From a bacterium (GTDB lineage Bacteria > Oederibacteriota > CAKKQC01), in contig CAKKQC010000040.1 of the NCBI GenBank assembly GCA_919901855.1, forward strand, positions 62,001-126,000: a stretch of DNA of 64,000 nucleotides. The letters are read 5' to 3'. Within the stretch, counting starts at the first letter, position 1, and every line of letters begins with the position of its first letter. Below the pieces are notes generated by a model. The model ran no database searches. It was not told the DNA's origin and was given only the letters and a program-made list of their open reading frames with translations. Shown one piece after another: positions 7,407 to 22,073 of the stretch. The translations under genes and the position numbers were made by a program.

Positions 7407-10013
7407 ATGCCCGTACGGCGTCCCGCTCCCGGAACCGGCCCTGTCGCGGTCAAACCGCGGATCTACCGCGGGCGCCACCTTGCGGAGATCGCGTTCCCGC
7501 TCGGCGGTATCGGCACGGGCAACGTCTCGCTCGGCGGCTACGGCCAGCTCCAGGACTGGGAGCTGTTCAACCGGCCCGGGAAGGGCCTCGACCTCCAGGA
7601 CACGTTCTTCGCCGTGTGGGCGCAGGCTGCGGGCCGCGAACCGGTGGCCGCGGTGCTCGAAGCCGAGGCGCCCCCGCCGTTTACCGGTTCGTACGGCTTT
7701 CGCGGGCGGGTCGCCCCGGGCCTGCCGCGTCTCGCGTCGTCCTCATTCACGAGCACGTATCCCTTCGCGCGGGTGAAGCTCGAGGACCCCGCGCTGCCGG
7801 TGGCGGCGTCGCTGGAGGCGTTCACGCCCTTCGTGCCGCTCCGCGACATCGACTCCGGCCTGCCCGCGGCCGTATTCCTCTGGACGCTCGCGAACCGGAG
7901 CCGCCGGAAGGTCGCGGCGTCGGTCGCGTTCTCGCTCCTGAATCCGATCGGGCTGGACGGCACCGAGGACTCGGTGGGAGCGCGGAACGCGGCGTTCGGC
8001 GGAAACCGCAACGATCTGGTGCACGACCGGCACGTCTGGGCGCTCCACATGACGAGTGGGCGGTATGCGCCCGGGGACGTGCGGCACGGCTCGCTCGCGG
8101 CGGGCGTCCTGTGGCCGCGCGTCAGCGCGGTTACCCGCTGGCCCGTCCAGCCGGGCTGGGGCCTCTGGGACCTCATGGAGGTCTGGCGGGAGTTCGCGGC
8201 CACGGGGCGGATCAAGGGTCCGTCGGATCCCTCGGTGTCCCCGGACGGTCGCACGGAGCGCGGGACGCTAGCCGCCCTCCTCGACCTCGAGCCGGGCGAG
8301 ACGCTCACGGTGCCCTTCGTGCTGACCTGGAACTTCCCGAACCGGCGGAACGACTGGAACACGGAGCCGGAGGTGCGCGGGAAGATCATCCGGAACTACT
8401 ACACGACCTGGTTCCCGGACGCGGCCGCGAGCCTTGCCTACGTCGTGCGCGAGTTCGACCGGCTCCAGCGCGAGTCCCGGGACTTCGAGCGCGCCTTCTG
8501 GGGCTCGACCCTGCCGTGGGACGTCCTCGAGTCCGCGGGGAATCAGCTCGCGACCGTCCGGTCGCCCTCCGGGTGGCGGGACGCCGAGGGGCGGTTCTTC
8601 GGGTTCGAGGGCTGCGGGTGCGGGTACGACGCCGGGGGGGATCGCACCGGGTGTTGTCCGCTCAACTGCACGCACGTCTGGAACTACGCCCAGACTCTCG
8701 CATACCTCTTTCCCGAGCTGGAACGGACCATGCGCACGACCGACTTCATGATCAACACGCATCCCGGCGGGGACATGGCGTTTCGCACGCTGGCGCCGGT
8801 GGAAGCCGGGGCGCTCTGGAACCACGCGCCGGCCGCGGACGGCCAGATGGGCACCATCATCCGGCTCTACCGCGACTGGCAGATCTCGGGGGATCTCGAG
8901 TTCCTGAAGGCGCTCTGGCCGAAGGCGAAGGAGGCGCTCGAGTTCGCCTGGAAGGCCTGGGATGCCGACCGGGACGGGATCATGGAGGGCGAGCAGCACA
9001 ACACGTTCGATATCGAGTTCTACGGTCCCAACCCGCTGACGACTGTGCTCTACCTTGGGGCCCTGCGGGCCGGGGAGGAGATGGCAGTGGCCGTCGGGGA
9101 CTCCGGCGCCGCCGCCGAGTACCGCCGCGTGTTCGAGGCGGGGTCCCGGAAGGCGGCGGAGCTCCTATGGAACGGCGAGTACTTCGTCCAACCCGACCCC
9201 GAATCGATAGCGAAACCCAACCAGCACGGCGACGGGTGCCTGGCGGACCAGCTCCTCGGCCAGTGGATGGCGCACCTGACCGGCCTGGGCTACCTCCTGC
9301 CCGAGGCGAAGGTGAAGAAGGCGATTCTCGCCATCCACCGGCACAACTTCCGCCCGTCGCTCCGGGGTCTCGTGAACACCGGCCGCGTCTACGCCCACCA
9401 GGACGAGGGGGGCGTGCTGGAATGCACGTGGCCGGGCGGCGGGCGCCCGAAGGCGCCGTTCCCGTACGCGGACGAGGTCTGGACGGGCTCCGAGTACCAG
9501 GTCGCCGCGCACCTGATCTGGGAGGGCCGCGTCCGCGAGGGGCTCGAGATCGTGAGCGCCGTCCGGGCCCGCCACGACGGCGAGCGGCGCAACCCGTTCA
9601 ACGAGCCCGAGTGCGGCAACCACTACGTCCGGGGGCTGTCGAGCTGGTCGCTCCTGCTGGCGCTTTCCGGGTTCCGGTGGTCGGCGCCCGAGCAATCGAT
9701 GCGATTCGTGCCGGCCCTGGCGGGGCCCCGGTTTGCGAGCTTCTTCTCGACCGGGACGGCGTGGGGGACGGCGGCCCAGGGCGTCCGGGGGCGCCGCGGA
9801 CTGGTGACCCTGACGGTGGCGGCGGGGACGCTCTCGGTGCGGCGGCTCCGTCTCGATCCAGGTTTCGTGCGGCTGGAGCGCGCCTGGATCGAGCCGGGCA
9901 TGACCTTCCTGCGGGGGGCGTTGGAGCGCCGGAAGGGCGAGGCGCTGGTCGAGTTCGCGGACCGGGTGGAGGTCCAGGGCGGCCAGGCGCTCGTCGTGAG
10001 TTTCTCCCGGTGA
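7407..10013 (+). CDS. GH116-family (GBA2/DUF608-like) beta-glycosidase
   Basis: 868 residues. The N-terminal domain (IAFPLGGIGTGNVSLGGYG, LQDWELFNRPGKG) and the (alpha/alpha)6 domain match glycoside hydrolase family 116, the non-lysosomal glucosylceramidase group. Conserved blocks include WNYAQTLAYLFPELERTMR, QHNTFDIEFYGPN, LADQLLGQW and DEVWTGSEYQVAAHLIWEG. No signal peptide is visible, so it should act in the cytoplasm on glucosides, xylosides or glycolipids. It ends 13 bases before exbB, which suggests cotranscription with the TonB system, perhaps linking sugar uptake to breakdown (inference). The start ATG is weakly supported: no clear ribosome site. Confidence 0.88.
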   Translation: MPVRRPAPGTGPVAVKPRIYRGRHLAEIAFPLGGIGTGNVSLGGYGQLQDWELFNRPGKGLDLQDTFFAVWAQAAGREPVAAVLEAEAPPPFTGSYGFRGRVAPGLPRLASSSFTSTYPFARVKLEDPALPVAASLEAFTPFVPLRDIDSGLPAAVFLWTLANRSRRKVAASVAFSLLNPIGLDGTEDSVGARNAAFGGNRNDLVHDRHVWALHMTSGRYAPGDVRHGSLAAGVLWPRVSAVTRWPVQPGWGLWDLMEVWREFAATGRIKGPSDPSVSPDGRTERGTLAALLDLEPGETLTVPFVLTWNFPNRRNDWNTEPEVRGKIIRNYYTTWFPDAAASLAYVVREFDRLQRESRDFERAFWGSTLPWDVLESAGNQLATVRSPSGWRDAEGRFFGFEGCGCGYDAGGDRTGCCPLNCTHVWNYAQTLAYLFPELERTMRTTDFMINTHPGGDMAFRTLAPVEAGALWNHAPAADGQMGTIIRLYRDWQISGDLEFLKALWPKAKEALEFAWKAWDADRDGIMEGEQHNTFDIEFYGPNPLTTVLYLGALRAGEEMAVAVGDSGAAAEYRRVFEAGSRKAAELLWNGEYFVQPDPESIAKPNQHGDGCLADQLLGQWMAHLTGLGYLLPEAKVKKAILAIHRHNFRPSLRGLVNTGRVYAHQDEGGVLECTWPGGGRPKAPFPYADEVWTGSEYQVAAHLIWEGRVREGLEIVSAVRARHDGERRNPFNEPECGNHYVRGLSSWSLLLALSGFRWSAPEQSMRFVPALAGPRFASFFSTGTAWGTAAQGVRGRRGLVTLTVAAGTLSVRRLRLDPGFVRLERAWIEPGMTFLRGALERRKGEALVEFADRVEVQGGQALVVSFSR

Positions 10014-10026
10014 ACCGGGGCTGACG

Positions 10027-10596
10027 ATGGAGCTCCTGCGCCATGTGGCCTTTGCCGGTGGTGAATGGGTCATCTGGGTCCTCGCCGCGCTGTCGGTGCT
10101 CGCCGTCGCGGTCGCCCTGGAGCGGGCGTTCGTGTTCTGGCGGGAGGGCGTCCTGTCCCCGCGCCAGATCGCTGTGGCCGAAGCCCGGCTGCGATCCGCC
10201 GGGGGCGCGCCGGTCCTGCCCCCGTTCATGGCCCGGCGACTGTTTACGGAAGGGCTCGGCGAGGCGGCGGCGGGACGGATCCGGGACCGGCTCGACCTGG
10301 AGCGGCGGCTCGTGATCCTGGGCACGCTCGGTGCGCTCGCGCCGTTCGTCGGGCTGTTCGGCACCGTGCTCGGCATCATCCGGGCCTTCCGCGACCTCGC
10401 CCAGGTGGGCGCGGGGCATCCGGAGATCGTGATGCAGGGGATCGCGGAAGCCCTGATCGCCACCGCCCTCGGCATCCTCGTCGCCGTCGTCTCGCTGACC
10501 TGCTACAACCTGCTAAACCGGCGGATCAAGGAGGCGTTCGCGGAAGCCGAACGCCTCGAGCTGCTCCATGGCCGCGCCCTCGACCGGGGACGATAA
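10027..10596 (+). CDS. exbB: ExbB/TolQ/MotA-family proton channel subunit
   Basis: 189 residues with three membrane segments (about 15-35, 97-120 and 140-165). The core GTLGALAPFVGLFGTVLGII and the GIAEALIATALGILVAV segment are diagnostic. With ExbD it uses the proton motive force to energise TonB. It overlaps exbD by 29 bases, so translation is coupled. TolQ is the alternative, but the adjoining tonB and receptor favour ExbB. Confidence 0.92.
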   Translation: MELLRHVAFAGGEWVIWVLAALSVLAVAVALERAFVFWREGVLSPRQIAVAEARLRSAGGAPVLPPFMARRLFTEGLGEAAAGRIRDRLDLERRLVILGTLGALAPFVGLFGTVLGIIRAFRDLAQVGAGHPEIVMQGIAEALIATALGILVAVVSLTCYNLLNRRIKEAFAEAERLELLHGRALDRGR

Positions 10597-10975
10597 CCGC
10601 GAGATCACGGACATCAACGTGACGCCCCTCGTGGACGTCACGCTGGTCCTCCTCGTGATCTTCATGGTGACCGCGAGCCTCATGATCACCCGCGTCTTGC
10701 CCGTCAAGCTTCCCGAGTCCGCGACCGGCGCGCCCGCGGGGCAGGTGACCTGGCAGGTCGTGCTACTGCGGGGGCCCGGGTACCTGCTCAACGGAAAGCG
10801 GATGACCGGGGACGAGCTCGCAGCGAAGGTGCGCGCGGAAGTCCGACTGCGTTCCTCGCTCCGCGTGGATCTCGCGGCCGACGGAGGGCTGTCCTACCGC
10901 GAGATCGTCGCGGCGCTCGACTTGCTCAAGCAGCAGGGCGTCCGCCATGTCGCGCTCTCGGTGGTGCCACGGTGA
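10568..10975 (+). CDS. exbD: ExbD/TolR-family proton channel subunit
   Basis: 135 residues. DINVTPLVDVTLVLLVIFMV contains the conserved membrane Asp that carries protons through the ExbB/ExbD stator. A short periplasmic domain (about residues 50-135) follows. The stop overlaps the GTG start of tonB (GTGA). Confidence 0.93.
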   Translation: MAAPSTGDDNREITDINVTPLVDVTLVLLVIFMVTASLMITRVLPVKLPESATGAPAGQVTWQVVLLRGPGYLLNGKRMTGDELAAKVRAEVRLRSSLRVDLAADGGLSYREIVAALDLLKQQGVRHVALSVVPR

Positions 10976-11583
10976 GCGCGTCCCGGCCCGGCTTCGCCGT
11001 CTTCCTCGGGGTGTCGGTCGTCCTCCATCTGGCGGCAGCCGGCGCGCTGCGCGCCGGGATCGGGACGACGGAACGTGCAGGGGAGGAGATGGTCATCGAT
11101 CTCACGGGGTCGTTCCGCACGCGTGCCGTCGCCCAAGCGGTTTCCGCCCCGCCCCCCGCTCCGGTTGAGGCGGCGGGGCGCGATGTTTCCATCGGCGCCG
11201 AACCGTCCCGGGATGCGACGATCGGCCAGGGCGCGGGGGAGGATGAGGAGGCCGGCGATCCTGCCGCCCCGCTGGTTGGCATCACCGCACTCCCCGAGCT
11301 GAAGGATCGGGGGGCCTTGCGGGAGAAACTCGAGCGGTACTACCCGCCGGAAGCGCGCGCCCGCGGCATCGAGGGGGTCGTCACGCTCGAGGTCGTCGTG
11401 AGCTCGCGCGGCCGAATCGTCTCCGCCCGGGCGGTCAGGGCCGATCCCGCGGCGTTCGCGGCCGAGTTCTCCGGGGCTGCGGTCTCTCTCGCCCGCGAGC
11501 TCGAGTTCACGCCCGCCTACCTGGGTGCCCGGCCGGTCGCGGTCCGTATCCGCCTGCCCGTCCGGTTCGAGATCGAGCGCTGA
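10972..11583 (+). CDS. tonB: TonB-family energy transducer
   Basis: 203 residues from a GTG start overlapping the exbD stop. One N-terminal membrane helix (FAVFLGVSVVLHLAAAGAL), a short linker with a few prolines (SAPPPAPVE) and a C-terminal TonB domain (YYPPEARARGIEGVVTLEVV, ending VRIRLPVRFEI). The linker is much shorter and less Pro/Lys-rich than in Escherichia coli TonB. The partner receptor begins six bases downstream. Confidence 0.9.
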   Translation: MSASRPGFAVFLGVSVVLHLAAAGALRAGIGTTERAGEEMVIDLTGSFRTRAVAQAVSAPPPAPVEAAGRDVSIGAEPSRDATIGQGAGEDEEAGDPAAPLVGITALPELKDRGALREKLERYYPPEARARGIEGVVTLEVVVSSRGRIVSARAVRADPAAFAAEFSGAAVSLARELEFTPAYLGARPVAVRIRLPVRFEIER

Positions 11584-11588
11584 GCGAA

Positions 11589-13793
11589 GTGAGCGGGAAG
11601 CGGCGGACGGCCGCGTCCATGGCGGTCGCGTGCGCCGCCGTGCTGGCGGCGCCGCTCTCCCGTGCCGACCCGGAAGCAACGGCTAGTCTGCGCGGCATCG
11701 TCTTTGAGCTGGGCACCCGTCGCCCGGTGGCCGGGGCGGAAGCGTCCGTCGACGGCCGTCCGGCCGCTGTGACTGACGATCGCGGGGCCTTCGTCGTCGA
11801 CTCCCTGCCGCCGGGGCTGCACGAGGTCCGCGTCGCGGCGTTCGGGTACGAGCCCCTCAGGGCGTCGGTCACGCTGACGCGGAGCCTCGAAGGGCGTCCC
11901 TTCTATCTGGAGCCCGGACTAGGCGCCCTGCCCGAGGTCGAGGTCGTCGCGCGGGTCCGCCGCGAGCCGTCCCGGCAGGCGATGACGCGCGCGGAATTGG
12001 CCGCCGTGCCCGCGACGGCGGGGGACCCCCTGCGAGCGGTCACGGCGCTTCCGGGGGTCTCCGCGGCGTCCGACATCGACAGCAACCTGTATGTCCGGGG
12101 CGGCGGGCCGAACGACAACGCCATGTACGTGGACGGTATTCCGGCCGGCTACCCGTACCATTTCCAGGGCGTGGCTTCGACTTTCCAGGCAGACGCGATC
12201 GAGACGCTCTCGTTCTACAGCGGCGGGTTCCCGGCCAGGTTCGGCAACCGGACCGGGGGCATTTTCGACCTCTCGACGCGGTCGGAGGTCCCGGACCGGT
12301 TCGCGGGCGCGTTCGACGTCAGCCTGATCGCCTCTTCGCTCGTGGTCGCCTCTCCGCTCCCCGCGCCCGGACTGTCCGTGTTCGCGGCCGGGCGGCGCGG
12401 ATACTTCGACTTCGTGGTGCCGCACGGAGTCAGGGACACGGCCGTGCCGCGTTACGACGACTACCTGGTGAAAGTCACGCTGACGGGGACCGGGTGGGGG
12501 GTCGCCACCCTCGAGGCGTTCGGGGCGGACGATACCGCGGTGGCGCAGGTGCGCAGCCGGACGGACCCGTCCGTGCAGGGGGAGTTCGACTGGCGCCACG
12601 CGTTCCACGTGGCCGCCCTTCGGCGCGAGCCCGCGGGGGGCGGTCCGGGGCTGTCGGCCGTACTGGCGGGGACGCTGTCGCGGCAGTCCGTGGACCTCGG
12701 GCAGGGGTACTTCTTCAACGAGTCCCCGGAATCCGCCTACACGCGGATTTCGGGCCGCCTGGACGCGGGCGCGCATCGCGCTGCCGCGGGGGCGGAGGCC
12801 ACGGTCACCCGGCACCGGCTGGACACGTACTTCGCCCGGTTCCCGTCCGAGGGGCAGGGGACGTACTCGTTCAGCCTGCTGACGAAGATCCGGTCCACGA
12901 GCCGGCTCATGGAACGTCAGGGCGGGGTGTGGCTCTCCGATCGTTGGGAGCCGAATCCCGGGAGCTGGATCGAGGTTGGCGCGCGAGCGGACGGCGACAC
13001 CAGGGCGCGTCGCGTGACACCCGCCCCCCGGGTGGCGGGACGAATCGCCGTGGCCCGGGGTCTGGGCGTGCAGGCCGCCGGGGGGCTCTACCTGCAGCCG
13101 CCCCAGACGCTCGAAGTCGCGCCGGACTGGGGCAATCCGCACCTCGCGTCCAGCCGGGCGTGGCACGGGATCCTGGGCGCGGTGGCGGAGCGCGGGGGCT
13201 GGGTCGCGTCGGTGGAGGCGTACGTGAAGCGGTACGACGACCTGGTGACGCCGGATCCGGCCGCGATCTACGCGAACAAGGGCTCGGGGTACGCGCGCGG
13301 GGCCGAGGTGCTCGTGCGCCGCTCGTTCGAGGAGCGGCTCGCGGGCTGGCTCGGCTATGCCTGGGCGGCTTCCCGGCGGCGCGACGCGCCCGGCGGGGAC
13401 CTGCGGCGGTCGGACTACGACCTGCCCCATGCGGTGACCGCGGTCGGCCGGGGCCGGCTCACGAAGGCCCTGACCGTCTCCGCCCGCTGGCGCTGGTCCA
13501 CGGGTCTTCCGTACACGCCGGTGACCGGCCAGACTGCCGACGCGACGGGGGCGGCGGTGCCCGTCTTCGGCGCCGTGAACTCGCGGCGCCTCCCCGCATA
13601 TCACCGGCTGGACCTCCGGGCCGAGTACCGGGTGCGGTTTGAGACCTGGACGCTGGTGCCGTACCTCGAGCTGCTGAATGCGTACGACCGCCGTAACCTC
13701 GCGACGGTCGTCTGGACCAGCAATTACTCGGGCGAGCGGCGCATCCGTCAGTTGCCGCGGACGCTCTTCTTCGGGTTGGGGGCGACCTTCTGA
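11589..13793 (+). CDS. TonB-dependent outer-membrane receptor with carboxypeptidase-like N-terminal domain
   Basis: 734 residues from a GTG start. Signal peptide to about residue 25, then a carboxypeptidase-regulatory-like domain (LRGIVFELGTRRPVAGAEAS; about 30-100), a plug (LRAVTALPGVSAASDIDSNL, YVRGGGPNDNAMYVDGIP) and a beta-barrel ending in Phe (FFGLGATF), as outer-membrane proteins do. The N-terminal domain arrangement resembles SusC-like and other receptors for large substrates. The ligand cannot be told. It is energised by the exbB-exbD-tonB genes immediately upstream and the four are probably one operon. Confidence 0.92.
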   Translation: MSGKRRTAASMAVACAAVLAAPLSRADPEATASLRGIVFELGTRRPVAGAEASVDGRPAAVTDDRGAFVVDSLPPGLHEVRVAAFGYEPLRASVTLTRSLEGRPFYLEPGLGALPEVEVVARVRREPSRQAMTRAELAAVPATAGDPLRAVTALPGVSAASDIDSNLYVRGGGPNDNAMYVDGIPAGYPYHFQGVASTFQADAIETLSFYSGGFPARFGNRTGGIFDLSTRSEVPDRFAGAFDVSLIASSLVVASPLPAPGLSVFAAGRRGYFDFVVPHGVRDTAVPRYDDYLVKVTLTGTGWGVATLEAFGADDTAVAQVRSRTDPSVQGEFDWRHAFHVAALRREPAGGGPGLSAVLAGTLSRQSVDLGQGYFFNESPESAYTRISGRLDAGAHRAAAGAEATVTRHRLDTYFARFPSEGQGTYSFSLLTKIRSTSRLMERQGGVWLSDRWEPNPGSWIEVGARADGDTRARRVTPAPRVAGRIAVARGLGVQAAGGLYLQPPQTLEVAPDWGNPHLASSRAWHGILGAVAERGGWVASVEAYVKRYDDLVTPDPAAIYANKGSGYARGAEVLVRRSFEERLAGWLGYAWAASRRRDAPGGDLRRSDYDLPHAVTAVGRGRLTKALTVSARWRWSTGLPYTPVTGQTADATGAAVPVFGAVNSRRLPAYHRLDLRAEYRVRFETWTLVPYLELLNAYDRRNLATVVWTSNYSGERRIRQLPRTLFFGLGATF

Positions 13794-15422: not shown

Positions 15423-15776
15423 TCAGGGCGCGAGAAGGATCGTAAGCGTCGCGGCTGTCGCGACGAGTCCCAGCAGGAGTGCCGCGGTCAGGCGGAGGAG
15501 ACGCACGGGGCCGGCGATGCGGCGCCGGAGCTGCCGGCGGAGCGCGCCGGACATTCCCGACCCGGCGGCGCCGGACGGCTGGGGGGCCGCAAAGCGTCCG
15601 AACAGGGACTTCGCGATCGTATCGGTCAACCGCTCGGTCGCGACGGCGAGCGACCAGAAGAGACCCGCGGCCAGCCCCGCGACCGCGCCGGCGACGGGCA
15701 GGAGCCAGCGGACGAAGAAACCCGGCGTCCGGCACAGCAGGGAGGGCGCGAGGGCGATCAGCGTTCCCAGCGCCAT
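15423..15776 (-). CDS. Small membrane protein of unknown function
   Basis: 117 residues from the ATG at 15776. Two hydrophobic stretches near the N-terminus (MALGTLIALAPSLL and LLPVAGAVAGLAAGLFW), a basic middle part and a final membrane helix (LLRLTAALLLGLVATAATLT). No family recognised. The frame remains open upstream to the end of the permease gene, but only CTG or ATA codons could start there, so the N-terminus may be longer by about 30 residues (LDNPGLLRRVGGRLIRWW). It is the last gene of a minus-strand trio with the FtsX-like permease and the PqqD-like protein. Confidence 0.5.
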   Translation of the reverse strand: MALGTLIALAPSLLCRTPGFFVRWLLPVAGAVAGLAAGLFWSLAVATERLTDTIAKSLFGRFAAPQPSGAAGSGMSGALRRQLRRRIAGPVRLLRLTAALLLGLVATAATLTILLAP

Positions 15777-15859
15777 GCCGCCCAGTCCGTAGGGGAGCCA
15801 CCACCGGATCAGGCGCCCGCCGACGCGCCGCAGGAGGCCGGGATTATCCAGGGCGCGTA

Positions 15860-16528
15860 TTACACTTCCTTGCGCATCGCTTCGACGGGCTGCATGCGGG
15901 CGGCGATGAGCGACGGGTAGATGGCGGCCATGACCGACAGGACGGAGCCGAGCAGGACGGTCATAGCCACGCCGCCGGCCAGGCGGTTCCACGGGGCGCC
16001 CGTCAGGACGGCGCGTCCGTAGAGTGAGGCGTCGAGGGCCAGGCATGAAGCGAGGCCCGCCACGCCGCCGACCGTGGAGCTCAGGGTGCCCAGCAGGAGC
16101 GCCTCGATGAGGAAGAGTTTCACCACGAAGCTGTTGAGGGCGCCGAGACACTTCATTGTCCCGATCTCCTTGATCCGTTCGGTGACGGACATGAGGAGCG
16201 CGTTGGTGACGCCGACGAGGCAGACGACCATCGAGGTTCCGATGAGCCACATCTCGCGTGCCGCCAGCCCGCCTCCGGTCTCCTCGAGGTCGATTCCGCG
16301 CCGCTGGAGCGCGAAGTTGACGTCCGGGTCGTTCAGGGCGATGAGTCCCCGCAGGAGGTCGTGGCCGGTGACGGTGAAGGCGAGGAAGGCGCAGGCGAGG
16401 GCGATCGAGCTCGACGTGATAGCTGAGCGTCCGAACCGGACCTTGAGGCTCATGAGGGCGATCTCGAGGGCCTTGTGCCACGGCAGGACCCGCTGGCGTC
16501 CGGGGACCCTGGGGAGCGAGGTGGCCAT
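15860..16528 (-). CDS. Miniature FtsX/MacB-like permease
   Basis: 222 residues. A first helix (SIALACAFLAFTVTG) is followed by a short extracytoplasmic stretch of about 40 residues and three helices. The stretch VTNALLMSVTERIKEIGTMK, with LGAL just after it, is the hallmark of FtsX-type ABC permeases. The end AAIYPSLIAARMQPVEAMRK is equally typical. MacB and FtsX have a much larger extracytoplasmic domain; here it is nearly absent. The start ATG shares its A with the TGA of the PqqD-like gene, so they are translationally coupled. No ABC ATPase is encoded nearby. Confidence 0.75.
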   Translation of the reverse strand: MATSLPRVPGRQRVLPWHKALEIALMSLKVRFGRSAITSSSIALACAFLAFTVTGHDLLRGLIALNDPDVNFALQRRGIDLEETGGGLAAREMWLIGTSMVVCLVGVTNALLMSVTERIKEIGTMKCLGALNSFVVKLFLIEALLLGTLSSTVGGVAGLASCLALDASLYGRAVLTGAPWNRLAGGVAMTVLLGSVLSVMAAIYPSLIAARMQPVEAMRKEV

Positions 16529-16959
16529 CACCGGCGGGCCGGATCGCCGGCGGCAGGGAATCCGACGAGATGGCGCTCGGAGAGGTGGCTGAGGAACTGC
16601 AGGACCGCCGCCCTGGCCTGCGGATCCGGCCAGCCGAAGTCCTCACCCACGCGCCGGGCGATCTCCTGGACCGGCGTGGCGCCGTCGCAGAGCCGCCAGA
16701 CGACCGCGCCGATCCGGTCCAACTGGAAAGTCTTGTGCTCCGGAAGGGTGAAGAACCAGGACAGGGCGCGCACGGCCCGGCCGTCGCGCCGCCGAACGGA
16801 CAGCACGATTTCGTCGCCGGCCTGTGATTCCCGGACGTGCGGCGCGCGGACGGGCACCAGGCTCAACGCCTCGGCCTGGTCGATGCGCCGGCGTGGCGGG
16901 GAGAAGATGCCGAGGCGGGCCACCGCGTTCACGGTCGTGTATTGTACCGCAACGATCAT
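16528..16959 (-). CDS. PqqD-like protein
   Basis: 143 residues. The C-terminal half (FQLDRIGAVVWRLCDGATPV then IARRVGEDFG and FLSHLSERHLVG) has the PqqD winged-helix pattern: an aromatic/hydrophobic strand, a LCDG turn and helices. PqqD domains bind precursor peptides for radical-SAM or other modifying enzymes. The N-terminal 60 residues are unlike known PqqD and may form a small beta domain. No modifying enzyme or precursor peptide is visible in the neighbourhood. The gene diverges from coaE with only 18 bases between start codons. Confidence 0.7.
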   Translation of the reverse strand: MIVAVQYTTVNAVARLGIFSPPRRRIDQAEALSLVPVRAPHVRESQAGDEIVLSVRRRDGRAVRALSWFFTLPEHKTFQLDRIGAVVWRLCDGATPVQEIARRVGEDFGWPDPQARAAVLQFLSHLSERHLVGFPAAGDPARR

Positions 16960-16977: not shown

Positions 16978-17604
16978 ATGGCTGGATTGGTGATCGGGCT
17001 CACGGGTGGCACGGGGACGGGGAAGACCGCGCTCGCCGGCTATCTGCGCCGTCTCGGGGCCGCTTACTACTCGGTCGACGCGGCGGCCCACGTGTTGTAT
17101 GCGCGCGATCGCGGGCTGGTGGACCGCCTGGTCCGCATCTTCGGGCCCCGCGTGGCCGGGCCCGGCGGCGTTGATCGGGCTGCTCTGGGGACTGCCGCGT
17201 TCGGGTCGGCGGGCGCGCTGAGCCGTCTGAACGCCGCCATCCAATCCCCGCTGCGCCGGGAAGCCCGCGCCGCGATCGCGCGGATGCGCCTGCGTCACCG
17301 GGTCACCGTCGTGGAGGCGGGCGCGATCCTCTTCGATCTCGGCCTCGCCCCGCTCGCGGACCGCATCGTGGTGACGCGGTGCGGGTCCGCCGTCCGGCGC
17401 CGCCGCCTGGCGCGGCGGCGCGGGATGCGGGCCGCGGAAGTTTGCCGCCGCATGGCGATCCTGCGGCCGGCGGAGTCTCGCATGCTGGCCGCGGCTCGCC
17501 GGTGCCGGCGGGCCCGCCTCGTCGAGACCGGGGGCAGCCCCGAGTCGCTCGGGGCCCTGGCCGTCCGGCTCATGGGGGAGGGGTATGGCCTCCGCGCGGT
17601 TTGA
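16978..17604 (+). CDS. coaE: Dephospho-CoA kinase
   Basis: 208 residues. CoaE phosphorylates dephospho-CoA in the last step of coenzyme A synthesis. P-loop GLTGGTGTGKT at residues 6-16, then YYSVDAAAHVLY in the place of the substrate-binding Asp motif, and the lid region RRRRLARRRGM. The protein is unusually rich in Arg. Two in-frame ATGs exist (16963 and 16978); the second is chosen because the earlier one overlaps a TATGGT -10-like box (16962-16967). It overlaps the next gene by 20 bases. Distant coaBC (38495) belongs to the same pathway. Confidence 0.82.
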   Translation: MAGLVIGLTGGTGTGKTALAGYLRRLGAAYYSVDAAAHVLYARDRGLVDRLVRIFGPRVAGPGGVDRAALGTAAFGSAGALSRLNAAIQSPLRREARAAIARMRLRHRVTVVEAGAILFDLGLAPLADRIVVTRCGSAVRRRRLARRRGMRAAEVCRRMAILRPAESRMLAAARRCRRARLVETGGSPESLGALAVRLMGEGYGLRAV

Positions 17605-18979
17605 CGCCCAGCGGCTGCAGGCGCTCCTCCCGCACGGGGCGGTAGTCGGGCTCCTGCTGGGTGTCATCGCCCTCGCGGTGGCCACGGGCGAGCGCCGTCT
17701 CTACCTGCTCGGGGGATTGCCGGTCGTGATGTCGTACTTTCTCTGGGGGCCAATGGGGTCCGCGATGCTGGCGACCGCGCTCGGCCTGCTGGCGCTGGTG
17801 GTCTGCGCGCGGACGCCGTTCGTGTTCGCGGTGCCGGTTCAGCTCGCCTCGCTCTGGGTGGCGTCCATGGTCTCGGCTCGCGTCTTCGACCGGCAGATCC
17901 TCAAGATCTCCCTGGCGAGGGAGCAGGACCTGGTGGCTCTGGCCGAAAGCGAAGCAGCCCTGGAGCGCGAGCGCGCCAGGATCGGGGCGGCCCGCCAGCG
18001 GATCGAGAAGATCGGCATGCTCAACAACGTGGCCTCGGACCTGGGCGCGACGCTGGAACTCCGGGAGGTCGTCGAGGCGACGCTTCGCCGGACCCGGGAG
18101 CTGACCGGGCAGTCCGGCGAGGCCCGCCTCGTGCTCTTCGACGATCAGGGATCGAAGGTCTACCGGACGGGTGCCGAAGGCCTGAGCGTGGCGCGGGAGG
18201 AGACCGATGTGCTCTGCACGTGGGTGCGCGATCGCGGCCTGCCCCTGCTCGTGGGTGACCTGCGGCGGGAGCCGAGGTTCCGGAGCGCCGAGGCCGAACT
18301 GCCCGCCTGCCGGTCCTTCATTGCGGCGCCCCTGTCGCGCGAGCGTCGGGTGATGGGGGTCCTGGCGGTCGAGGCCCCGGAGCCGAACGTCTTCAGCCAG
18401 GAGGATTGGCGCATGCTCTCCCTCATGTCGGACCTGGCGTCGGTGGCCATCCAGAACGCCCTGCTCTACCAGCGGACGCAGGAGGAGGCCATCACGGACG
18501 GGCTCACGGAAGTGTTCGTCCACCGCCACTTCCAGGAACGCCTGACGGACGAGCTGCGGCGCGCGGCGGACCAGGCCATTCCGCTCACCCTGCTCATGGC
18601 GGACATAGACAACTTCAAGCGGGTGAACGACACGCACGGTCACCTGACCGGTGACGCCGTCCTTAGGCGCATCGCCCGGGCGCTCCGCGAGGGTGTCCGC
18701 GGAACGGATCTGGTGGCGCGGTACGGTGGGGAGGAGTTCGCGGTGTTGCTGGTGGAAACGCCGCTGGACGCGGGGGCGGTCGTGGCGGACCGTCTGCGTG
18801 CCTCCGTCGAGGCGCTCCGGTACGAGGATGTCGGTCTCGCGGAGGCGGTGACGGTCTCGATCGGCGCGGCGGGGTTTCCCGGTCAGGCTTCCGATGAACG
18901 CGGGTTGATCGAGAAGGCGGACGAGGCGCTCTACGCGGCGAAGGGAGCGGGCAAGAACCGCGTGACGGTGGCCGGGTAG
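17585..18979 (+). CDS. Membrane-bound GAF-GGDEF diguanylate cyclase with intact I-site
   Basis: 464 residues. An N-terminal membrane domain (about 17-95), a coiled coil (about 105-145), a GAF domain (about 150-300) and a GGDEF domain (about 305-460). The active-site signature is RYGGEEF, and the product-inhibition site RGTD lies exactly five residues before it, so the enzyme should make c-di-GMP and be feedback-inhibited. ITDGLTEVFVHRHFQERL and DIDNFKRVNDTHGH are typical. The start ATG follows GGGGAGGGG inside coaE. The signal sensed by GAF is unknown. Confidence 0.93.
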   Translation: MASARFDAQRLQALLPHGAVVGLLLGVIALAVATGERRLYLLGGLPVVMSYFLWGPMGSAMLATALGLLALVVCARTPFVFAVPVQLASLWVASMVSARVFDRQILKISLAREQDLVALAESEAALERERARIGAARQRIEKIGMLNNVASDLGATLELREVVEATLRRTRELTGQSGEARLVLFDDQGSKVYRTGAEGLSVAREETDVLCTWVRDRGLPLLVGDLRREPRFRSAEAELPACRSFIAAPLSRERRVMGVLAVEAPEPNVFSQEDWRMLSLMSDLASVAIQNALLYQRTQEEAITDGLTEVFVHRHFQERLTDELRRAADQAIPLTLLMADIDNFKRVNDTHGHLTGDAVLRRIARALREGVRGTDLVARYGGEEFAVLLVETPLDAGAVVADRLRASVEALRYEDVGLAEAVTVSIGAAGFPGQASDERGLIEKADEALYAAKGAGKNRVTVAG

Positions 18980-19011
18980 CTTGCGGCCCGCCTCGGACGG
19001 AGTGGATTCGG

Positions 19012-19019
19012 TATAGAAT
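19012..19019 (+). promoter_or_regulatory. -10 region (TATAGAAT) before the small membrane coiled-coil gene
   Basis: TATAGAAT lies 39 bases before the GTG at 19059 and stands out in GC-rich DNA. The resulting leader contains GGACGGAGGG as ribosome site. A -35 is not evident. Confidence 0.4.
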
Positions 19020-19058
19020 GGAGATTCGGCACGAGCCGGATCGCAGGACGGAGGGCAT

Positions 19059-19496
19059 GTGAAGGCAAAGACGGTTTGGATGTGGACGGCGGGGCTGACG
19101 GCCCTGACCCTGATCGTGGGCTTCCAGCGCGGCCCGGTGGCGCAGTCGGTGCTGTTGCACTGGCCGGTGGCGATCATCCTGCTCATGGGCTATGCGTACC
19201 ACCTGCGCGGCGGCCTGGTGGCGGCTGGCACCGCGACCCTGATGGTGATCGGCCTGCGGCTGGGGGGCGTCCTGGGAGATTGGACGCTCGTCGGCTGGCA
19301 GGTCCTCGTCTACGGTGTATTCGGGCTGTATCCTTTCAAGTTCATCCAGATTCGCGAACAGCGCCATCATCATTACCGGACATTGATCGAGTACAAGCGC
19401 GGCGAGACGGATTCCCTCCGGCAGAAGCTCGATGAGGTGGACCGTAAGTGCCGCGAACTCGATCAGCGGACCCGGCTCGCTGGGGGGGGCGGCTGA
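19059..19496 (+). CDS. Small membrane protein with C-terminal coiled coil
   Basis: 145 residues from GTG with the ribosome site GGACGGAGGG. Three or four hydrophobic helices (about 8-90) lead into a charged helix (YKRGETDSLRQKLDEVDRK) of coiled-coil type. The layout resembles the membrane and coiled-coil part of the neighbouring GGDEF proteins without an output domain. The stop overlaps the next start (TGATG). No family recognised; a partner in the same sensory complex is a plausible inference. Confidence 0.6.
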   Translation: MKAKTVWMWTAGLTALTLIVGFQRGPVAQSVLLHWPVAIILLMGYAYHLRGGLVAAGTATLMVIGLRLGGVLGDWTLVGWQVLVYGVFGLYPFKFIQIREQRHHHYRTLIEYKRGETDSLRQKLDEVDRKCRELDQRTRLAGGGG

Positions 19497-20461
19497 TGGC
19501 TTCGTCGCCGCCGAAGGGATCGCCCGCCGTGCGGTGGGCCGAGCGCGCCTCGCCGGCGGCCCTGTCCGCGGTGGCCGTGACGCTGGCGGCGGCGTTCGTC
19601 GTCCTCGGCTTCCTGGCCGTACGCAACTGGGAGCAGGTGCCCATGGCGCTTCAGGTGTTGCACCTCGCCGTGCTGGCGATCGGGTTCGCGGCGCTTCTCT
19701 GGGGCTTCTGGGGCGCCGTCGGATCGGCGGGCGGCGCGTGCCTGACCGCGCTCGCGGTCACCGTGATTGCCGGCCGGGTGAGTCTCGAGAGTCATCGGGC
19801 ATTCACGCGAGGCCCCTTTCTCATGGAATGCGCGTTCTTCGGCCTGCTGGCGTGGCTGTGCCTCCAGTTCCTCGAGCGCGAGGAGGTCGAGGAGACGGCG
19901 GACCGCCGCCAGCTCGAACGGCTCGAGGAGGAATTCCTCGAGCTGGCGATCCAGTTCGGGAAGCGCGAGGAGCTGCTCAAGGTCCTGGAGAAGAAGCAGG
20001 ATCGCCTTCGCCAGCTTGATGCGTTGGGCGGACGGATGCGTGCCGAGGGGGCCGATGCGGCGGGGTACATCCAGATCTGCCTCGCCGAGGTGGTGCAGGG
20101 CGTCGGGAAGGGCGAGGCGGAGATCGCACTCTACCAGGACGGCACGGGCGTGGTCCGCCACCCCCGGGGTGGGAGCCCGGTGGGCGTGGCGGACGGCCGG
20201 GATGAGATCGACCGATGGCTCGAGGAACACCGGACGGCGCTGCTGGTGAACAACCTGACCCACGACGTCAGGTTCACGCCCGGATTCGGGCGGAGCCGTC
20301 AGATCGTTTCGGTGGTGGCGGTCCCACTCGTGTTCGGGGGGAAGCTCATGGGTACCCTGCGCCTGTCGTCCACGACGCCGCAGGCATTCACGCATGAGGA
20401 CCTCCGGTTCGCCAGTGAGGCCGTCGGAATCCTCTTGCCGCTGGTGTTCCGCACGGCGTAA
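19496..20461 (+). CDS. Membrane-anchored GAF-domain protein without output domain
   Basis: 321 residues. Four or five membrane helices (about 17-135) are followed by a long charged coiled coil (REEVEETADRRQLERLEEEF, about 135-190) and a GAF domain (about 195-320; VVAVPLVFGGKLMGTLRLSS). It ends there: there is no GGDEF, kinase or other output. It sits between two GAF-GGDEF proteins with similar layout and may be a sensory partner or decoy. Its TAA stop forms the first bases of the repeat at 20459. Confidence 0.75.
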   Translation: MASSPPKGSPAVRWAERASPAALSAVAVTLAAAFVVLGFLAVRNWEQVPMALQVLHLAVLAIGFAALLWGFWGAVGSAGGACLTALAVTVIAGRVSLESHRAFTRGPFLMECAFFGLLAWLCLQFLEREEVEETADRRQLERLEEEFLELAIQFGKREELLKVLEKKQDRLRQLDALGGRMRAEGADAAGYIQICLAEVVQGVGKGEAEIALYQDGTGVVRHPRGGSPVGVADGRDEIDRWLEEHRTALLVNNLTHDVRFTPGFGRSRQIVSVVAVPLVFGGKLMGTLRLSSTTPQAFTHEDLRFASEAVGILLPLVFRTA

Positions 20462-20600
20462 AGGCCGCTTCGAAGACTCAGCGGCCTTTGGAAGCAGCGG
20501 ATGATTTGTTGGTTCTGCGATGGCTTCTAAAGGCCGCTTCGAAGACTCAGCGGCCTTTGGAAGCAGCGGATGAATTGCTGGTTCTGCGATGGCTTCTAAA
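20459..20600 (+). repeat. Two tandem 69-bp repeats, each with a terminator-like hairpin
   Basis: Copies at 20459-20527 and 20528-20596 differ at two bases. Each begins TAAAGGCCGC and contains the perfect 9-bp inverted repeat AAAGGCCGC / GCGGCCTTT around a 12-base loop, like an intrinsic terminator with a short T run. Each copy ends with ATGGCTTCT: the second supplies the start codon of the GGDEF gene at 20589, the first starts a 17-codon dead-end frame (20520) that stops within copy 2. Confidence 0.9.
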
Positions 20601-22073
20601 GAGGGGTCCGATCGGGGAGGTATTGCCGTGGGAGAAACCGAACAGGACATTCTGCTGGCCAGCCTGCTGCTCCTCGGTGCCGCCTTGCAGTACCTGCTCG
20701 GCGGCCCCTGGTTGCTCGTCGTGGGGGCCGTGGCCGTAGGCATCCGGGTCAACTTCTCCCGGGACGACCGCCGGGGCATCGTGGCGACCGCGATCGCCTG
20801 TGTTCTCTGGATCGCCCTGCATACATCGGTGACCAGCATGCTGACCCGTCTCCAGGTGGCGATCGAATTGGGCGCCTTTTCGGCCTTTGTGGTCGTCTTC
20901 TGGGTCGCCCGGCAGATCAACCGCGAACGCCTCCTGGCGGACGAGACCCAGCTCGAGGACGCCCGAAAGGGCGGCGCCGACATGCAGGCCAAGCTCCGCC
21001 AGCTTCGCCGGGACTCGGAGGTCATGGTCTGGGAGAGCGAGGAGCTGACCCGGCTCTTCGGAGTCACCCGGAGCGTGGGCGAGGTAATCCGCGAAGAAGA
21101 GATCGTGAACGTGATCCGGGAGACGGCCCAGGCCTATCTGAAGCTGCCGGCCTATGTGCTGCTGCTCGCGCGCGACGAGGCGATCCGGGTCCGAGCCCAG
21201 ACGGGGTTCGACGACGACACGCTGGCGGACGCGGCGTTCCCGCCCGGCGGCGGGACTCTGGCGGCCTGGTTCCTTCGGCAGCGGGAACCCGTACTCGTGG
21301 ACGACGTGTCCGAGGACCCGAGGTTCGCGGGCGCCATGTTCCCGTACCGTTCGCTCGTCATGCTGCCGATGCTGGTGAGGGACGAGCCGGTCGGCGCGCT
21401 CGTGGCGCTCGACGGACACCAGAGGTCGTTCACGCGACAGGACTACACGCGGGCCGGCATCCTGGCAAAACAGCTTTCGCTGGGGATCGGCAAGACGCTC
21501 CTCTACGGGCAGATCGAGGAGCTGTCGATCACGGACGGACTCACCAAGCTGTACCGTCACCGGCACTTCCAGGAGCGGTTCGAGATCGAGCTCGAGCGGG
21601 CGCGGCGATACAGCCGCCCGTTGTCCCTGCTCATGGGCGATCTCGACCAGTTCAAGCAGTTCAACGACGCCTACGGGCACCTGGAGGGGGACGATGTGCT
21701 CAAGCACGTGTCCCGCGCCATGGAGGCGAACTTCCAGCGCCCGGCGATTCTGGCCAGGTACGGAGGGGAGGAATTCGCGGTGCTCCTGCCGGACACGAGC
21801 CGGGAGCGGGCGGCCGAGCTCGCGGAGAAGTTCCGCGCGGCGCTCGAGGCCGCGCCGATGACGGCGGCACCGCTGGCGGCAACGCCGTCATCGGCGCCGG
21901 GACCTCGTCCCGCGGTGACCATGTCGATCGGCGTGGCCGCCTTCCCGGAGGATGCCCAGACCCGGCGTGACCTGATCGCGCGGGCCGATCTCGCCCTCTA
22001 CCGGTCGAAAGACGCGGGGCGCAACCGGGTCACGATCTTCGACGCCGCGTGGCAGAACGCGCCATCCGGATAG
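20589..22073 (+). CDS. Membrane-bound GAF-GGDEF diguanylate cyclase without I-site
   Basis: 494 residues. Membrane helices (about 18-115), coiled coil, GAF domain (about 155-310) and GGDEF domain (about 315-485) with RYGGEEF at the active site. The inhibitory RxxD motif is replaced by QRPA, so product inhibition through the I-site should be absent. A low-complexity Ala/Pro insert (about residues 425-440) interrupts the C-terminal part of the GGDEF domain. The start ATG lies within the end of the second 69-bp repeat; the in-frame GTG at 20631, 14 codons on, is an alternative start. Confidence 0.9.
   Translation: MASKEGSDRGGIAVGETEQDILLASLLLLGAALQYLLGGPWLLVVGAVAVGIRVNFSRDDRRGIVATAIACVLWIALHTSVTSMLTRLQVAIELGAFSAFVVVFWVARQINRERLLADETQLEDARKGGADMQAKLRQLRRDSEVMVWESEELTRLFGVTRSVGEVIREEEIVNVIRETAQAYLKLPAYVLLLARDEAIRVRAQTGFDDDTLADAAFPPGGGTLAAWFLRQREPVLVDDVSEDPRFAGAMFPYRSLVMLPMLVRDEPVGALVALDGHQRSFTRQDYTRAGILAKQLSLGIGKTLLYGQIEELSITDGLTKLYRHRHFQERFEIELERARRYSRPLSLLMGDLDQFKQFNDAYGHLEGDDVLKHVSRAMEANFQRPAILARYGGEEFAVLLPDTSRERAAELAEKFRAALEAAPMTAAPLAATPSSAPGPRPAVTMSIGVAAFPEDAQTRRDLIARADLALYRSKDAGRNRVTIFDAAWQNAPSG

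Follow-up and report, generated by a model that had tools for sequence, protein, structure and literature searches.

The translationally coupled genes for a PqqD-like protein and a miniature FtsX permease (mini-FtsX), located in the window (the whole stretch of 64,000 nucleotides that was analysed), are best explained in terms of a conserved type VII ABC complex of asymmetric build, of whose second copy they would form the displaced half; we assign this reading a probability of about 0.6. An earlier note had proposed a stripped-down export or quality-control module working with proteins encoded elsewhere. Its second part held, with the cognate ATPase on contig C23 and a 'giant' permease on contig C63; rather than a self-contained module, the pair would be a displaced fragment of the larger conserved system. 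In the open-licence literature, we found no paper that joins Coatesbacteria with PqqD and nothing relevant on PqqD with an oligopeptide transporter, and full-text searches retrieved neither a paper on DUF6785 nor one in which PqqD is connected with FtsX ABC transporters, or M28 with both FtsX and MacB. The system is real and conserved, has apparently not been described before, and represents a new architecture among the type VII ABC systems, not a class of its own. The features of the locus are collected in the table.

Table. Features in and next to the PqqD/mini-FtsX locus (positions in the window).
Feature	Position	Strand	Remarks
Third ORF, ~3 hydrophobic segments, lineage-specific	15423..15859	minus	Coding-like GC3
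Mini-FtsX, 4-TM type VII ABC half-permease, 223 aa	15860..16531	minus	No MacB-like periplasmic core domain
PF02687 FtsX C-terminal domain (TM2-TM4, residues 97-215)	15887..16243	minus	Family motif EIGTMKCLGA
Stop/start overlap (GTGA / TGATG) coupling PqqD and mini-FtsX	16528..16531	minus	Sequence
PqqD-like (RRE-fold) protein	16528..16959	minus	143 aa as longest ORF
PF05402 PqqD domain	16564..16743	minus	Residues 73-132 of PqqD-like protein, Pfam
GAF-GGDEF diguanylate cyclase, divergent neighbour of the pair	17585..18979	plus	Domain scan

The PqqD similarity claimed before passed the profile search, with a match to PF05402 at E=1.3e-12 and 48.3 bits versus a cut-off of 23.4 (Pfam), and the fold matches agree. 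The AF2 model (pLDDT 80) exhibits a winged helix of three strands and three helices in RRE order with one inserted helix, and Foldseek ranks TbiB1 with bound leader peptide as the best PDB fold, followed by PqqD. The protein thus shares with PqqD and the discrete RiPP recognition elements (i) a PF05402 score above the cut-off, (ii) the RRE fold, and (iii) leader-peptide complexes as nearest structures. It differs from them in the extra helix, which is located between strands 2 and 3, in an N-terminal extension, and in having ABC and multi-TM membrane genes as neighbours, with no radical-SAM (rSAM) enzyme or precursor seen among them. Scores against the equivalog models for known PqqD proteins are far under the cut-off (PQQ, 29.2 versus 46 bits). 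Since residues 1-19 are modelled with low confidence and homologues begin near residue 13-18, the annotated ATG is probably too early, with GTG at 16932 or 16923 being the true start.

The coupling of the two genes was likewise borne out: in ...CGGTGATGGCC..., the PqqD stop codon TGA overlaps with either a GTG (4 nt) or an ATG (1 nt) as start of mini-FtsX. The latter matches PF02687 (E=1.8e-15; 57.5 bits versus a cut-off of 25.5, Pfam), contains four hydrophobic TM segments, and is modelled by AF2 (pLDDT 86) as four long helices, for which MacB-type transporters are the top PDB folds, with LolCDE and FtsEX after them. As the earlier note had recognised, the permease is missing its ectodomain: neither Pfam nor the AF2 model reveals MacB_PCD or another large extracytoplasmic domain, and TM1 and TM2 are separated by only ~40 residues. 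GC3 values of 0.88-0.91 in all three minus-strand ORFs support that these are coding, and no sigma-70 promoter was found near the pair. The third ORF, which had been listed with the pair as a membrane protein, shows none of the common start codons (ATG/GTG/TTG) close to its 5' end. Its membership in the system is doubtful; with no homologue detected in 58 other genomes, and none at the same-family locus L057, it was ruled out as a conserved part.

No ATPase or rSAM gene adjoins the pair in the window, as had been noted. The divergently oriented diguanylate cyclase is the first of three GAF-type genes in a row beside CoaE (17585-22073), two of which carry GGDEF-like sequence (the first one domain-scanned); the CoaE-GGDEF order is also kept in a genome of the same family (L020), and a 69-bp tandem repeat (20459-20601; 2.1 copies, 97% identical) is located between two of the GAF/GGDEF-type genes. 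On the other side of the pair, the window holds an ExbB-ExbD-TonB-TonB-dependent receptor operon (10027-13793), directly upstream of which lies a large gene (7407-10013) that looks glycoside-hydrolase-like.

The nearest relative locus, L057, is on a Candidatus Coatesbacteria contig from another genus of the same family, and keeps the pair at 68% (FtsX) and 43% (PqqD) identity in the order found in the window (OMP - mini-FtsX - PqqD - CoaE - GAF-GGDEF), with the third ORF missing. Beyond this family, a mini-FtsX alignment run against 84,980 species genomes yielded >550 relatives, and PqqD and mini-FtsX were found adjacent in several phyla. All locus counts refer to the best 80 of these relatives, a best-scoring and not a random sample in which counts are not independent events. 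A LolD-like ATPase lies directly downstream of mini-FtsX in 71 of the 74 such loci with enough flank, which provides the conserved link with an ABC ATPase that the earlier note had proposed to look for; the link with an rSAM enzyme did not materialise, none being recognised beside the pair in the relative loci read. Giant-type genes are present in 51 of the best 80 loci, and PqqD is located directly upstream of mini-FtsX in 8. By its sequence relationships, mini-FtsX represents a 4-TM half-permease of a distinct subfamily that is normally encoded together with a LolD-like ATPase.

In part of the relatives, the cluster has the order giant - 650-aa multi-TM protein - ~300-aa protein - PqqD - mini-FtsX, as in G003, G082 and a partial G005 contig, with the LolD-like ATPase next in G003 and G082. 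The same order is found in Latescibacterota (L059, L061, L103) and Omnitrophota (L094, where the giant is cut by the contig end), and the order PqqD - mini-FtsX - ATPase in Planctomycetota (L113) and Hydrogenedentota (L130). All six mini-FtsX-bearing genomes among 98 relatives also match the PqqD of the window. PqqD is nonetheless an accessory part of the system, since it adjoins mini-FtsX in so few of the best loci and was not found beside the mini-FtsX copies of the Desulfobacterota clusters.

The giant comprises ~1450-1720 residues with Peptidase_M28, then MacB_PCD (in several members) and then FtsX (Pfam); its hydrophobic segments are one at the N-terminus, a triplet before the FtsX unit, and TM1 - core domain - TM2-4. 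A single FtsX unit was recognised, so that the giant needs a second permease half. That mini-FtsX is this half is supported mainly by co-occurrence: strong mini-FtsX matches and giant matches coincide in the same 6 of 98 relatives (G000, which is the window's own genome, G001, G003, G005, G082 and G083), the remaining 92 having neither (hypergeometric 9.5e-10, with relatedness ignored, G000 and G001 sharing a family), and 21 of 21 further mini-FtsX genomes, most of them picked for having no giant near mini-FtsX, encode 1-9 giant matches elsewhere. Many of the Latescibacterota and Gemmatimonadota genomes (G098-G104, G113, G117) contain several giant matches (up to 9), an unusual expansion, with some of the matches being pieces of a single gene.

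M28 enzymes bind a dinuclear metal centre through the ligands HxD, D, EE, D and H. An alignment of 12 giants shows that, with few exceptions, HxD is replaced by [YF]xD (or has another residue before xD), and EE by a variable residue followed mostly by His. On account of these alterations, the comparison covering the HxD and EE motifs, we infer that the M28-like domain is a pseudo-peptidase or has an altered site. The other partner genes encode the 650-aa multi-TM (OPT-like) protein and a DUF6785/6784 protein. For the former, assignment as an OPT transporter was not supported (hhalign probability 1.7%, with only two OPT sequences; no Pfam match). The ~300-aa protein (L014, 6665-7555, and relatives), usually located upstream of PqqD, conserves a W..GxxxxxPxxW motif and has no Pfam or NCBIfam match among the members scanned. 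Extended PqqD-like genes also adjoin an OPT oligopeptide transporter with no FtsX in two unrelated genomes (L015, 9028-11368; L016, 4582-7163; OPT identity Pfam-confirmed for L015); these loci are related to the system of the window but separate, and were set aside.

The genome of the window, a MAG related to Ca. Coatesbacteria, encodes exactly two giants (on C12 and C63), two mini-FtsX (a PilZ::FtsX fusion on C12 and that of the window, contig C40) and two cognate ATPases (C12, 73% identity; C23, 70%; next best 46%). The genes on C12 form a compact cluster (giant - OPT-like - PilZ::FtsX - ATPase), whereas C63 carries giant - OPT-like - a 644-aa protein resembling DUF6785/6784 (as judged by sequence and position), and the C23 ATPase is solitary with no permease adjoining. 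In the trees, the C63 giant and OPT-like protein join those of the PqqD-bearing Latescibacterota clusters L059/L061/L103 (SH-aLRT 99 and 91), and the mini-FtsX of the window falls within the clade that holds the same clusters (89/92; closest grouping 82/30). The C12 FtsX and ATPase join Omnitrophota/G003/G082, apart from the mini-FtsX of the window; the placement of the C23 ATPase is poorly resolved. Going by gene copy number and by trees whose support is in part weak, the simplest reading would be one compact (C12) and one dispersed copy (C40, C23, C63), with the pair of the window belonging to the latter.

Alternatively, mini-FtsX might homodimerise on the ATPase to form a small, independent mechanotransmitter or regulator under the control of PqqD, in which case the giant would act separately as a transporter. 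The extra TM segments ahead of the giant's FtsX unit would be consistent with such an arrangement, as would the many Latescibacterota and Gemmatimonadota mini-FtsX-ATPase loci with no giant within 10 kb. However, every tested genome with such a locus has giants at other sites, the occurrence of the two permeases is perfectly correlated among the 98 relatives, and a giant with a single recognisable FtsX unit is left in need of a second half, which makes a homodimer unlikely. The pair could also be a decaying remnant of an operon lost in this lineage, considering that the genes are dispersed, that the third ORF has no orthodox start codon, and that the ~300-aa 'GWxGISFxIPxxW' partner was not found in the genome with either a sequence or an 8-row profile search. 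Decay is nevertheless highly improbable, given open frames with strong GC3, other components that are intact in the same genome, and the conservation of both identity and order in L057.

A RiPP pathway, in which PqqD presents a precursor to a radical-SAM/SPASM enzyme encoded elsewhere while permease and ATPase export the product or confer immunity, would account for the RRE fold with leader-peptide complexes as nearest structures, and PqqD-like proteins near enzymes and transporters have been taken as a sign of RiPP clusters (PMC7470986). The genome indeed encodes three SPASM-domain proteins, but their genes reside on other contigs (C6, C72, C10) with no link to PqqD. Moreover, the neighbours of PqqD and mini-FtsX in the relative loci read include no recognised rSAM gene, the conserved association is instead with a peptidase-like permease and multi-TM proteins, and the PQQ equivalog score remains below its cut-off. 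RiPP or PQQ biosynthesis was hence rejected as the main explanation and appears quite improbable.

Returning to the asymmetric type VII complex, we propose that mini-FtsX, with no ectodomain, and the giant, with its large one, would heterodimerise in LolC/LolE-like fashion on two ATPase subunits. ATP binding would then zip the TM bundle such that the ectodomain of the giant alone moves, that is, by the mechanotransmission described for MacB (PMC5985334), and the M28-like domain may not cut its substrate, a peptide or a protein, but hold or present it. PqqD, on the cytoplasmic side, might bind peptides as an adaptor or gate and in this way tie the ATPase cycle to a peptide in the cytosol, be it a substrate signal or the tail of one of the partners. 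The PilZ domain found at the N-terminus of the C12 mini-FtsX (L051, 9176-10231; G000:C12) points to an ABC permease that is controlled directly by cyclic-di-GMP, and its position, equivalent to that of PqqD, suggests that PqqD and PilZ could be alternative cytoplasmic input modules. GGDEF genes lie near the PqqD-bearing members of the window, L057, L094, L012 and L014 and are absent from the other named loci, and GGDEF or PilZ genes recur beside PqqD-bearing members in other genomes; together with the PilZ fusion, this renders a cyclic-di-GMP input to the system plausible, albeit from small numbers. It is then tempting to speculate, although we hold this broader view only tentatively and at clearly less than even odds, that the PqqD/RRE protein is a non-RiPP, cytoplasmic peptide-binding input of a heterodimeric type VII ABC envelope machine with an M28-like pseudo-peptidase giant half, and that the whole constitutes a previously undescribed system by which bacteria of many phyla handle peptides or proteins.

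With LolCDE (likewise type VII), the system shares a separate LolD-like ATPase, the expected two FtsX-type halves and the fold match. LolC and LolE, however, both possess periplasmic domains, whereas here one half is bare and the other carries an M28-like and MacB ectodomain. LolCDE equivalog status is not attained either: LolD is the best NCBIfam match of the cognate ATPases, at 239 and 226 bits versus a cut-off of 308, and the permease scores 43 versus 362 bits. BceB resembles two MacB halves joined in one protein, of which the first has lost the periplasmic domain (PMC5985334), and BceAB-type systems are thus similarly asymmetric type VII permeases; yet BceB is a single fused chain, while the bare half is here a separate gene with a peptidase-like partner, and no two-component system was seen. 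FtsEX and YbbAP-TesA, the latter a type VII ABC system acting with a hydrolase (PMC12646458), would have in common with our proposal that ATP drives mechanotransmission to a partner outside the cytoplasm which is an enzyme or resembles one (PMC12646458, PMC5985334), but they are devoid of the PqqD, OPT-like and DUF6785 partners, and the enzyme-like M28 domain is here part of the permease chain, with a catalytic site that looks degenerate.

For RRE-Finder, a PqqD-like protein close to enzymes and transporters points to a RiPP cluster (PMC7470986), a rule to which the present PqqD family is probably an exception; a PqqD match near a transporter should hence not by itself be equated with a RiPP cluster. 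The system is present in Coatesbacteria, Latescibacterota, Gemmatimonadota, Planctomycetota and Omnitrophota, and also in Hydrogenedentota, Kiritimatiellota, Lentisphaerota and Desulfobacterota, with PqqD in only some of these phyla. The cultured members Desulforhopalus singaporensis and Desulfosediminicola flagellatus make its PqqD-less core testable. Finally, the PqqD-bearing members would bring together an RRE, which is a domain for peptide recognition, a peptidase-like ectodomain, and mechanotransmission of the type VII ABC kind.
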